Shown piece after piece: positions 1 through 35,411 of a DNA stretch of 64,000 nucleotides. The position numbers and the translations under genes are program-made. Location of the stretch: contig BCIK01000009.1 in NCBI GenBank assembly GCA_039545295.1, forward strand, positions 124,001-188,000, read 5' to 3'. Every line of letters begins with the position of its first letter. Position 1 is the stretch's first letter. Under the pieces are notes generated by a model. It was not told the DNA's origin and searched no databases. It was given only the letters and a program-made list of their open reading frames with translations. Origin of the DNA: Udeniomyces pyricola (lineage: Eukaryota > Basidiomycota > Tremellomycetes > Cystofilobasidiales > Mrakiaceae).

Positions 1-3000
1 ACACGTATGAAGACGGAATAAAGTAGATCATGGGAATGATCAAAGCGACGAAGACCGCCCAGACCGGGAAGCCGGTCGGATACGCCTGACGACAAGACTT
101 ATCAGGTCACATTTTCCCACAGTCGTAGACACAGATCAGAATGTAGTGACTTACTGCCGCTGCGATGATTCCAAACGCGAGGAAAATGGCAAAGGAGATA
201 CCATACCACCTACCAGAGTTTGAGGTTAGCCTGTGACGCCAGAAACGAGGAACCAGCAGTTACCGAACATATAGCACGCACCACATCGGCACCTCTGGGT
301 AAGTCCGCATGAGCTTCGCGTGGACATCATCCTCCTCGACATCCTGCCCTCGAATGACCTTTAAAATTGGCTCCCAATAATGAAGCATTGTGTGAACGAT
401 GGCGGCCGTTGAGATAGCAAGACCGAGCATGTATGTCAAGGTCAAGCCGGTTGAGATGTATAGCGGCGAGTACTCCGCATATGCTGTTTGGTTGAAGCCG
501 CCGTGCTCAGTAAGAACTCGAGTGTAGTTGTATGAATGTCCGAAGCGATCAAAGGCGGTAGAAGAGATGATCGGGAAATACTGAGAGCTCCAGACCTGTG
601 GATTGCATATGTTAAGAGAACAGTCCAGTCAGCAACGATAACAACACACCGGAAAGAGATCACACTGAATACACGAACATTTGAGTAGTAGAGAGAAGGA
701 ACGATGATCCAATATGCCACAATCATGCCTATGGCGATGTTTGCCGTGGCCCACCAAGGCGTGATCAGAGGAGACCCGGTCCAAGATATCTGGCTCCAGT
801 CAAAGGTAAGAAGACTTCCTCCAAGGCCTGTTGCAGTACCAAAGATCTGATTGATGACGAGGTTATCTTTCAAGAGCGAAAATGAAGGCGACAGAAATTA
901 GATGGAGATTGTATGAATTAAGTCAGTATCACGCCAGGATGACGGACAGCGAGTATGTAAACAATCTCACTCGGTTTGATCCAGCAGACCCAAGAGAAAT
1001 AACCAAGGGCACCGAAGAGATAGCCTACAAAAAAAGGCAAGTCTTGATGCGTCAGAACGGTACTATAGCCTGACGTGGAGGGACTAGAATCTTACCAGGC
1101 AGGAAATAATATAATCCCGATCCCACAATCGTGATAGTAAAAAACTTGTTTCGAGACATCCGCCCATCAGGCACACCAAAGTCGGCATGGAGAACATTCA
1201 AGATAGTGCAGAAAATCAAGACTTGCGGCCAGATGAGCGACGCCGGCCATGTCTGTGAAAAGTGGAATATGATGAACGGATGAGCTGTCACGCTTGCGGT
1301 AACCAAGAATCTAGAGAGAATTGACTTGGAAGCAGCCACAGAAGGAACAACGATAGAAGAACAGAAGACAGAACGAGAGACGAGTTTGCGGGCAAGAAAG
1401 ATGACGCACGACTAATCGGCGTGCGAAGCCTGAGAACGAAAGGGCGATGAGCTGCGTCGAGATCACAAAGCAAAATTCGAAACTGGAGTAGAACATCTCT
1501 CAGCGAAGTGCACCGAACATCGGGTCATATAAGCAACCACATAAGCGGATATGGAAGAGAAAGTCATACCCAATTGGCAAAGTTTGGAAGTAATATTTCT
1601 TGCTAGCAATGGCGCCCATCACAGCGTAGGGTTGAATAGTTGACGATATGAGCATCATGCTGATAAGTGAATGTTCCTTGATGTTAAAAACACCTGAATG
1701 ACAGCACAAAAAGGTACATCAGCGTTGCTCAATCGAAATACAAAGCACAATAGTTACGAACCTGGATTTAACGAGAATCCACGGCCCCCCAAGTAGGGTG
1801 TCCATCTAGGAAATGTGACATCCCTGATAGGTAAAACCCAAGCGAGACCTTTTCCAAGGGGATAGACAATGAGGCTGCAAAATAGCAGGTAGAGTAAGCA
1901 CGAGTCCCTAGCAGGATGGTACCTCTGTCCTTTTCTTGCTATTTCCTGTCAAACTCACATGACAATGGATGGAGCAATGGATGGCCCTACAGCACGAAAG
2001 TACAATATAGTATTTAGACCTCCAATTATGGCAGATAGAGTGATACCAATCATCCAAACACGGATGGTGAGTGCTGAGGAGTTAAGAAAACGCGAAGTCG
2101 AAGGATGCGAGATTGGTCCTGATCAGCATCACTGTTCCGATCACGGTACCGCGCCAGGCAAGCAGTGAGCTGTAGTATGACTGTATTCTCAAGACTGACC
2201 TGGCATATCAGGATCGTCCAGGTTTGATACGCTGGCTCTAACCTCCGCAAAAGGGCTGTCGTCTTCAGTCATGTCGGCGTCAATCTCCCCTCTGTAGACA
2301 ACCCAAAACAAGCATCAGCTCTGCTCTAGTCATGATTACGTAATATAAAGTACAGCGTAAGAGTATCAAATAAGAGGACGAAAGAGAGGAGGCAGAAGGA
2401 AGGACGGAGTGGGCTTACTTCTCAAAGTCGTCTTGATCCCTGTCGCCTCCCCCCCTCGTCGTCATTCCATCCGGTATCGTTGTGACTCCATCGAGTTCAG
2501 TCGCTGCCCAAGTGCCTCTTGAATGGCCTCTGATGCTCGGCTCATCGACTGTGAGATTGTCAACAGATTCAAATGCCGCTTTGGAGCTCGCGTCGTCCGA
2601 ATGCGGCCGATGATTCACCAGTGGAGAAAAAGAAGTCATCCGGACGGCGTGTCGGTCGTTGTCGGGTAGCGAAAAGTCATCGCTTTCTTTCGTCATGCTG
2701 GTACTGGTCCGCTGGAGGATGGATCGAGGTGGCGGCTGGAGAGACGGTTCGACGGATGTGATACCATTGGTATACACGTATGGAAGGTAGGGCGTAATGA
2801 CGTTGTCGATCGGATGTGCGAGAGGCGAGGACACAGAGGGCACGATATCGTGTCTTGGGATAGCGGAAGGAATGCGATAGCTGAAAGGCGATGAGGAGAT
2901 ACCAGAGGAGGGAGGAGATGCCTGAGGAGTGCCAAATGGATTGACGGAGGGGATGACGGTGGCATCGAAAGCTTGGGAGACGCGACCGGTTTGGGGTCGA

Positions 3001-3242
3001 TGAAACGCGAACACCCCTTCTTCAAGATCGGACTCGTCTTCGCTCCCCTCGTTCTCCTCATCGTATTCGTCGAGATCAGGGTGAAATGTGTTCGGTGCGG
3101 GTTCAAAGTTGCTGATGACACTGCCCGAGGTGTCAGGGCGATCAAGGGTAGCAGCGGTGCTCGGACGAGCGCGAGCCGTCCCGGTGCGAGCGCGACGGGT
3201 CGAGACCGTTCCCGCAGAAGGTGGTTGTTCAGAGGGAGACAT
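1..3242 (-). CDS. Oligopeptide transporter, OPT family (3' end outside window)
   Basis: Membrane transporter of the OPT family, which in fungi imports small peptides (and in some members glutathione or metal chelates) by proton symport at the plasma membrane. The start at 3242 opens a 274-residue hydrophilic, Ser/Pro-rich and acidic N-terminal exon (donor after 2419). The next exon, about 2215-2290, carries the family signature SPFAEVRASVSNLDDPDMP. Further exons give typical OPT segments: MSRNKFFTITIVGSGLYYFLPG (about 1095-1165), NLVINQIFGTATG (about 830-870) and EEDDVHAKLMRTYPEVPMW (about 275-335). Near position 1 the reading continues as AYPTGFPVWAVFVALIIP, so the C-terminal part is missing only because the window ends. 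Substrate cannot be told from sequence. The cytosolic N-terminal extension is long and probably disordered. It lies 1.4 kb downstream of the secreted-peptide precursor on the same strand. Confidence 0.9.
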
Positions 3243-3512: not shown

Positions 3513-3636
3513 TGGGGGGGGGGGNNNNNNNNNNNNNNNNNNNNNNNNNNNNNNNNNNNNNNNNNNNNNNNNNNNNNNNNNNNNNNNNNNNNNNNNNNNN
3601 NNNNNNNNNNNNNNNNNNNNNNNNGGGGGGGGGGGG
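3513..3636. other. Assembly gap of 100 N inside a poly-G tract
   Basis: Positions 3525-3624 are 100 consecutive N. They are flanked by 12 G on the left (3513-3524) and 12 G on the right (3625-3636). Exactly 100 N is the usual placeholder for a gap of unknown size. The true content is unknown and is probably a longer G tract or a hard-to-sequence repeat. Confidence 0.95.
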
Positions 3637-4042: not shown

Positions 4043-4270
4043 ATGTCGTTCAATCTAGTCTCATCCATTTCGACCTCTTCTAAGGGTGCGGCCAAATTCT
4101 TCGATCCCGATGAGAATCTGACCGTTACAACTAATAGCTCGCCACTCGCCGCGCATGCAATGGCATCCGCTAGCTGGACTTTAGCAAAACATCATCAGAA
4201 TGACTTTCCTGAAGAACACGTCCACGTCTTGGCATCGACTCACACAAGGGCGTTTATACGTAGGGGTTGA
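4043..4270 (+). CDS. Possible small hypothetical protein, 75 residues
   Basis: An open frame from ATG 4043 to a TGA ending at 4270, beginning MSFNLVSSISTSSKGAAKFF. An in-frame ATG at 3998 would extend it by 15 residues, but that extension is AT-rich and looks non-coding. A TATA-like A/T stretch lies 15-30 bases upstream. Composition is mixed and not low complexity. I recognise no domain, signal peptide or membrane segment, and no splice sites support it. It may simply be a chance open frame next to the peptide-precursor gene. Confidence 0.25.
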   Translation: MSFNLVSSISTSSKGAAKFFDPDENLTVTTNSSPLAAHAMASASWTLAKHHQNDFPEEHVHVLASTHTRAFIRRG

Positions 4271-4629: not shown

Positions 4630-5245
4630 TTAAAAGGAGGTCGCCTGTTTAGTAGAACGCATTAGGATGTTAGCTAGAGCTACCAAGTTGAAAGAACACA
4701 TCTGTCTATATCGTGTTGACTCACGGAGTTTCGCCAGTCAGGGTTAGCGTTGGCTCGCTTGAAAGGAGCAGGCGCGTTCCACTCGGGCTCGGCCTCGTCT
4801 CGCTTGAAAGAAGTGGCCTGAGGTAGTAAAAGAGTGTGGAGTTAGTCGGGGGAATAGTCGTACTAGTATCGAGTAGGTAGAATAAGGCTCACGGAAGTTC
4901 GCCAGTCAGGAGTAGCTTGGTCTCGAGCCTGCAGTTCACCATGGATGTAGTCCAATCAGCTAAGAGTAGAAACCTAACAAGCACAGACGTCAGGTATCAT
5001 GCGCACCTCGACAGCGGCATCTCGCTTGAAGGGAGCGGGCGCGTTCCACTCGGGCTTGGCCTCGCCTCGCTTGAAAGAAGTGGCCTGAGGTAGTAAAAGA
5101 GGGAAGAGTTAGTCCGAAGGAATAGCCGTACTGGTATCGAGTAGGTAGAACAAAGGCTCACGGAATTTCGCCAGTCAGGAGTGACTTGGCCTCGAGCCTA
5201 CAATTCACCATAGGCGCCGAATCCAGTCAATCAAAAGTAGGAAAC

Positions 5246-5281
<36 letters not shown>

Positions 5282-5383
5282 GGGCGTTAGGTCTCAGGCG
5301 CGTACCTCGACGGCGACAGGGGCAGCGAAGGAAACCGTCGCGAGAGAAAGCGCGGCGATGAACGCGGAGGTAGGGAAGATCAT
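4630..5383 (-). CDS. Secreted Kex2-processed repeat peptide precursor (putative pheromone/signal peptide family)
   Basis: Six exons read on the minus strand: 5306-5383, 5162-5197, 5007-5084, 4893-4928, 4725-4817 and 4630-4644. All five introns are phase 0 with GT..AG ends. The product is 111 residues. Residues 1-20 form a clear signal peptide (MIFPTSAFIAALSLATVSFA, then AP). The rest alternates two related modules: PDWRNSATSF (or PDWRTSATSF) and PEWNAPAPF. Four Lys-Arg dibasic sites, each right after F, separate five predicted peptides in the order A-B-A-B-A. The last exon encodes only ATSF and stop, so the final peptide ends exactly where Kex2 would cut the others. N-terminal spacers are rich in Ala/Glu/Pro (GEAK, DEAE, ANAN), as in alpha-factor leaders trimmed by dipeptidyl aminopeptidase. 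This architecture is that of fungal Kex2-processed repeat proteins. I know of no family with these exact peptides. Function (mating, quorum sensing, surface or antimicrobial peptide) is not shown. No single-frame ORF covers the gene because its exons are so short. Confidence 0.78.
4725..5197 (-). repeat. Tandem duplication of two-exon unit inside the peptide-precursor gene
   Basis: Exon 2, intron and exon 3 (5007-5197) match exon 4, intron and exon 5 (4725-4928) in order, exon length (36 nt for exons 2 and 4) and sequence. The introns between them (5085-5161 and 4818-4892) are also nearly alike, sharing GTGAGCC, TTCTACCTACTCGATAC and CTTTTACTACCTCAG. Similarity in intron as well as exon means the unit was duplicated as DNA and fairly recently. 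Because all introns are phase 0, the duplication leaves the frame open. Confidence 0.8.
5249..5280. repeat. (CA)n microsatellite in intron 1 of the peptide-precursor gene
   Basis: Sixteen CA units on the plus strand (TG on the sense strand) lie within the 108-nt first intron (5198-5305), between the signal-peptide exon and the first repeat exon. Length is likely variable between strains. Confidence 0.95.

Positions 5384-26419: not shown

Positions 26420-35411
<8,992 letters not shown>

Follow-up and report, generated by a model that had tools for sequence, protein, structure and literature searches.

A candidate Kex2-processed precursor of two sister peptides near an OPT transporter gene in Udeniomyces pyricola

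What does a fungal gene with five related short modules separated by Lys-Arg pairs release from the cell, and for which recipient? The question is raised by a locus on contig C9 of the basidiomycete Udeniomyces pyricola, within a stretch of 64,000 nucleotides that was analysed as a whole and is referred to below as the window. Searches of the genome covered 25.0 Mb in 38 contigs. Kex2-processed repeat proteins (KEPs) have been surveyed by Le Marquer et al., who, in the part of their text available here, report 1193 KEPs from 226 species; KEPs are found in basidiomycetes too, where some are laid out like alpha-factor precursors and one group repeats an XSDW motif, and the function and sensing of basidiomycete Kex2 repeat peptides are described as largely unknown (Le Marquer et al., 2019; PMC6339444). 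Since that survey includes basidiomycetes, the kind of precursor considered here is already known. The gene at this locus is, on balance, probably a Kex2-processed repeat precursor from which two sister peptides are secreted, and these are candidates for a self signal apart from the CAAX pheromone.

Structure and copy history of the precursor gene

The precursor gene was rebuilt from the window sequence as six exons on the minus strand, from 5383 to 4630 (Table 1). All six exon lengths are divisible by three, with every exon in phase 0, and all five introns (108, 77, 78, 75 and 80 nt) run from GT to AG, which reproduces the phase-0 chain with canonical splice ends proposed in the preliminary description. 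The product has 111 residues, MIFPTSAFIAALSLATVSFA followed by APVAVEARGQVTPDWRNSATSFKRGEAKPEWNAPAPFKRDAAVEARDQATPDWRTSATSFKRDEAEPEWNAPAPFKRANANPDWRNSATSF and a stop codon. Its five modules fall into two sister kinds, A (PDWR[NT]SATSF), present three times, and B (PEWNAPAPF), present twice. They run in the order A (PDWRNSATSF), B, A' (PDWRTSATSF), B and A, with four FKR tripeptides between them; both the order and the separators match those first described. The proposed P[DE]W...F family does end in Phe, but its length needed correcting, as the residues after P[DE]W number six (PEWNAPAPF) or seven (PDWRNSATSF) and not five to seven. Because the last core copy, in the fifth module, ends at F-stop, the C-terminal Phe of the peptides is defined, and the earlier claim that this terminus is set without processing agrees with the rebuilt chain.

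Table 1. Exons of the peptide precursor gene and the transporter gene downstream of it, in window coordinates.
Feature	Position	Strand	Basis
Exon 1: MIFPTSAFIAALSLATVSFA followed by APVAVE; signal-peptide-like start	5306..5383	-	rebuilt chain, crude signal score
Exon 2: AR-GQVT-PDWRNS; first half of core A1	5162..5197	-	rebuilt chain
Exon 3: ATSF-KR, GEAK-PEWNAPAPF-KR (core B1), DAAVE	5007..5084	-	rebuilt chain
Exon 4: AR-DQAT-PDWRTS; first half of core A2	4893..4928	-	rebuilt chain; 32/36 nt identical to exon 2
Exon 5: ATSF-KR, DEAE-PEWNAPAPF-KR (core B2), ANAN-PDWRNS (first half of core A3)	4725..4817	-	first 63 nt: 59/63 identical to exon 3
Exon 6: ATSF and stop; fixes the C-terminal Phe	4630..4644	-	rebuilt chain
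OPT oligopeptide transporter (ISP4 type best); next recognised gene downstream	1..3242, on to about C9:122662	-	PF03169, TIGR00727

The start of the product combines a hydrophobic stretch with a small-X-small cleavage site. Its crude, home-made signal score is equalled by 34 of the 890 open ATG starts in the window, and the start is thus consistent with a signal peptide, short of proof. The pattern CCNGANTGG occurs eight times in the whole window, with no overall excess over shuffled sequence (mean 10.5; 82 of 100 shuffles reach eight). Five of the eight matches, however, are packed into 446 bp of a single strand, all in the frame of the model, and these are the five modules.

Relatives of the precursor were sought at several levels. 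No paralogue was found in the genome, where a protein search at E up to 10 returned five matches, all of them at the precursor locus itself. A PDB sequence search with the precursor at E up to 10 gave no match, and Pfam and NCBIfam yielded sub-threshold matches only (best E 0.099 and 0.11, respectively). Furthermore, tblastn detected no precursor relative in viral contigs (6 pattern stretches) or prokaryote genome contigs (83), which is unsurprising for a gene of fungal origin. Neither Rfam nor a tRNA scan yielded a match in the window.

Within the gene, a tandem duplicated unit of 267-269 nt can be recognised, introns 2 and 4 included (exon identities in Table 1). These two introns are identical at 67 of 75 aligned sites (8 differ), with 2 further gap columns. 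Introns 1 and 3 are less alike, with 49 of 78 aligned sites identical and 30 gap columns, and are similar mainly at their 3' ends; intron 5 has no recognisable likeness to introns 2 or 4. In all three copies core A is split at the same point by a phase-0 intron, so that a duplication or recombination located in an intron would keep the core whole. Intron 1 also contains a (GT)n run (window 5250-5279, minus strand), which is likely to vary in length between strains and is a possible marker.

The copies were further compared codon by codon, with changes counted by hand. The cores show eight codon-level changes, seven synonymous and one nonsynonymous (N to T in A'), with seven of the eight affecting third positions. 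Four changes, none of them synonymous, occur in the aligned four-residue spacers, a V/A codon that differs at two bases being counted as one change. Excluded from the count were the KR codons, which are invariant, the spacer ANAN and the DAAVE segment, neither of which has a clear partner, and exon 1. Without selection, at least seven synonymous changes in eight would arise with a probability of 0.0002-0.0006 for a transition bias of 1-4, and the contrast between cores and spacers gives a one-sided Fisher value of 0.010. It is this ratio of 7:1 synonymous to nonsynonymous changes in the cores, against 0:4 in the spacers, that makes the cores look selected. Summed over the pairs A1/A2 and B1/B2, the cores show 3 differences in 57 sites. 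Over whole duplicated exons the figure is 8 in 99, only little below the 8 of 75 for introns 2 and 4, because the spacers change fast. Drawn from only 12 codon changes, the copy comparison supports the reading frame and a view of the cores as the functional portion of the gene.

Predicted processing and comparison with known repeat precursors

In every one of the five modules exactly four residues stand between an R, belonging either to KR or to EAR, and P[DE]W, the spacers being EAR-GQVT, KR-GEAK, EAR-DQAT, KR-DEAE and KR-ANAN. This constant spacing points to cleavage behind EAR as the step that would free modules 1 and 3, and the EAR motifs before these modules are likely processing sites. 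The dipeptides that follow the four KR sites are GE, DA, DE and AN, so that the STE13 signature (XA/XP) is present at one site in four. Since the other three sites lack it, STE13 trimming is not predicted, and since the spacers vary, the exact N termini of the peptides are uncertain.

The maturation route outlined here is predicted from the sequence together with the presence of suitable enzymes. The signal peptide would be cleaved first, kexin would cut after each KR, and modules 1 and 3 would probably be cut by some activity behind their EAR; the KR pair would then be stripped by a Kex1-like carboxypeptidase. The secreted products would be peptides of 13-14 residues ending in Phe, namely GQVTPDWRNSATSF, GEAKPEWNAPAPF, DQATPDWRTSATSF, DEAEPEWNAPAPF and ANANPDWRNSATSF, and the computed [M+H]+ values of the five predicted peptides are 1413.680, 1472.633, 1550.698, 1565.734 and 1582.713, with 1180.538, 1167.543 and 1028.484 for the cores in trimmed form. 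Aminopeptidase trimming is expected to stall at an X-Pro bond, and the conserved Pro that opens every core would stop further trimming, leaving X-P[DE]W...F. As for the enzymes, the genome has a kexin-like gene on contig C30, with a P domain found by PF01483 and a catalytic segment just upstream identified by eye, in addition to a DPPIV-type peptidase and several S10 carboxypeptidase loci.

According to the available part of the survey, a KEP is defined by an N-terminal signal peptide and no membrane segment, at least four fragments after cuts at KR or RR, at least three similar fragments, and repeats that make up at least 15% of the length (Le Marquer et al., 2019; PMC6339444). In the present precursor four KR sites yield five fragments, and the three A and two B cores account for 48 of 111 residues (43%), their similarity being judged by eye and not by the Fimo pipeline of the KEP authors. 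The kexin that is also required in the genome is represented by the C30 gene, with its P domain and the catalytic segment seen by eye. The start of the precursor is consistent with the signal peptide of KEPs, and it shares with them the KR-separated fragments and the occurrence of two motif types in one precursor, a feature of 77 of the 1193 surveyed KEPs, while three motif types occur in 2 (Le Marquer et al., 2019; PMC6339444). None of the conserved motifs listed in the available text of that survey corresponds to the P[DE]W...F core; the basidiomycete motif mentioned there is XSDW (PMC6339444). On the sequence evidence, the precursor gene is a real one of the KEP type. The earlier proposal of a Kex2-type repeat precursor with a signal-like start draws support from the exon chain, the four KR sites and the kexin-like gene, and its interpretation as a predicted Kex2 peptide precursor is well supported.

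Mating genes and alternative roles of the peptides

STE3 is present in the genome on contigs C16 and C27, and the precursor lies on a different contig (C9). The STE3 region is found twice, at L024:5322-8917 (C16) and L025:4781-8376 (C27), with 99.94% identity over 3,596 bp; this doubling is probably an assembly duplicate and less probably a duplicated mating locus. A scan for CAAX ends, run over the 10 kb around STE3 on each contig, listed three short ORFs for C16 and none for C27. One of the three is the pheromone candidate, MDAFTAIFTPF...CTIA, which occupies L024:5217-5345 (C16), about 1.5 kb from STE3, and we take this ORF to fit a basidiomycete pheromone. Together with STE3, it also marks the genome as that of a basidiomycete. 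The C27 copy of the STE3 region begins at an N run inside the CAAX ORF, the last seven codons of which (SFICTIA) are present. The C16 candidate has no Pfam or NCBIfam match and is absent from the results of a genome search with PF08015; that search gave two sub-threshold matches, and in the CAAX scan neither of their 3-kb loci contained a CAAX ORF.

With a CAAX candidate beside STE3, the mating pheromone is probably something other than the precursor peptides, and the view that the precursor is distinct from the mating pheromone, already put forward in the preliminary description, is strengthened by this separate candidate adjoining STE3 on C16. The precursor would share with the CAAX mating pheromones of basidiomycetes the character of a secreted peptide signal, but differs from them in its signal-like start and in its position off the STE3 contigs. 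As a CAAX pheromone itself the precursor was rejected, its C terminus (...ATSF) having no CAAX box.

Ascomycete alpha-factor precursors have the same layout of a secretory precursor with KR-separated copies, and in yeast alpha-factor the last copy ends at the peptide C terminus. The present precursor differs in its two peptide kinds and in the STE13 dipeptides, and as an alpha-factor-type precursor it was rejected, the signature being found at only one of the four KR sites. It also has no alpha-pheromone motif as given in the available part of the KEP survey (PMC6339444). The same precursor could nevertheless release peptides that are sensed at the cell surface in the manner of ascomycete alpha-factor, for instance by a G-protein-coupled receptor, and the OPT gene nearby would then be coincidental. 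This is a serious contender, though a clearly less probable one than not: it draws on the entry into secretion and the KR-separated copies, as in alpha-factor precursors, and on the speculation by Le Marquer et al. that basidiomycete KEPs with STE13 signatures are sensed by such receptors (PMC6339444, in the part available), but three of the four KR sites here are without that signature, STE3 already has a CAAX candidate of its own, and the genome contains no STE2 match, a search in which no control genome matched either. Peptides aimed at other organisms, with an antimicrobial or host-directed role and not that of a self signal, are unlikely. Some Kex2-processed precursors do yield mycotoxins, and an effector role has been hypothesised (PMC6339444, same part), but the cores are short, non-cationic and without cysteines, and their conservation is equally expected for a self signal.

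The remaining alternatives have far less to recommend them. Ribosomal cyclic-peptide precursors of the dikaritin or ustiloxin type likewise consist of repeats separated by Kex2 sites (PMC6339444, in the part available), and W or F would in that case be cross-linked by UstYa-type enzymes. This is very improbable here: the two distinct cores are without tyrosine, no UstYa (DUF3328) match was found in the genome (or in any control genome), and the recognised neighbours are a Sec7/GBF1-like gene, the OPT gene, NPC1 and an EH-domain gene. These neighbours were identified by profile scans of selected open frames (10, 10, 10 and 8), so that a small cluster gene could be missed. Repellent peptides are larger than the 13-14-residue peptides of this precursor, and a structural or surface-active role like that of the Rep1 repellents of Ustilago is the least probable of all. 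The Rep1 precursor, likewise from a basidiomycete, is also Kex2-processed and lacks the STE13 signature, but repellent peptides are amphipathic, according to a title cited in the survey (PMC6339444, in the part available), whereas the present 13-14-residue peptides are polar- and proline-rich. Finally, the gene model itself could be partly wrong, the locus being no gene, a decayed gene or a gene with other exon ends. The model is known from sequence alone, and exon 6 contributes only four residues and a stop; the third-position changes in the cores, the in-phase exons, the canonical splice ends and the lack of a stop in any of the five modules nevertheless make such an error highly unlikely.

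The nearby OPT gene and possible reimport of the peptides

The identification of the OPT gene comes from several partial matches. Two PF03169 matches, at 263-628 and 445-897, lie above the curated cut-off and a third, at 1055-1411, lies below it. Weak TIGR00727 matches (E 0.002-0.05) cover N-terminal pieces at 2192-2314, 1958-2122 and 1503-1718; they score below the whole-protein cut-off of that model, with the order of the profile kept. Further C9 matches extend leftwards, past the edge of the window, to C9:122662. The first exon spans 3242-2419, with the ATG at 3242 and the junction read by eye, and this ATG lies 1.4 kb from the precursor stop on the same strand. The interval contains 100 N (an assembly gap at 3525-3624) and a possible 75-aa ORF, so that strict adjacency of precursor and OPT gene is not certain. 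The ORF (4043-4270, + strand) begins MSFNLVSSISTSSKGAAKFFDPDENL, has a TATA-like run directly upstream and no NCBIfam match, and may or may not be a gene.

The genome has at least seven OPT loci, as grouped by hand from 30 exon matches. For the remaining six loci, a crude scan over 20 kb at each listed 31 similar KR-peptide pairs, all with 5-6/9 identity; the precursor pair reaches 9/9, compared with 5/9 for the other pairs in the window among the 12 of 13 listed. The chance that an OPT gene is one of two neighbours is about 2 x 7 / 9000, roughly 0.2%, assuming ~9000 genes and that only OPT counted. Since many other kinds of neighbour would have seemed meaningful, the true surprise is much smaller than this figure implies. 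The nearby OPT gene suggests a cell-to-cell signal and is no proof of one.

In Cryptococcus neoformans, QSP1 and OPT1 presumably have consecutive locus tags. Qsp1, a secreted peptide of 11 residues, depends for its action on Opt1, a predicted OPT transporter; according to the part of the report available, the serine protease Pqp1 matures it extracellularly, and its site of action is inferred to be intracellular (Summers et al., 2020; PMC7537855). Similar peptide length, a basidiomycete source and the link with an OPT protein bring the two systems together, although the link here amounts to a precursor lying near an OPT gene. They differ in that the KR repeats point to kexin, whereas Qsp1 uses Pqp1, and the comparison is one of descriptions and not of sequences.

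For the precursor as a source of a self signal, the peptides would, with less certainty, serve the fungus as a diffusible signal among its own cells, and return through the nearby OPT importer followed by intracellular action is the leading guess for their perception. A fully linked pair, in which kexin would release A and B and the adjacent OPT protein would reimport them, as an independent or ancestral counterpart of Qsp1/Opt1, is a tentative and rather doubtful proposal. Its precursor type would differ from that of Qsp1, and the A:B ratio could possibly serve as information. With C termini that are defined, a pair of sister cores apparently under selection and an importer gene nearby, the locus is a testable candidate signalling system, which would represent peptide signalling of the Qsp1/Opt1 kind outside Cryptococcus, and precursor-OPT pairs are worth scanning for across basidiomycete genomes. 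Elsewhere in the window, 26 kb from the precursor, an ABC-transporter membrane segment (PF00664) lies at 31381-32292 on the + strand.
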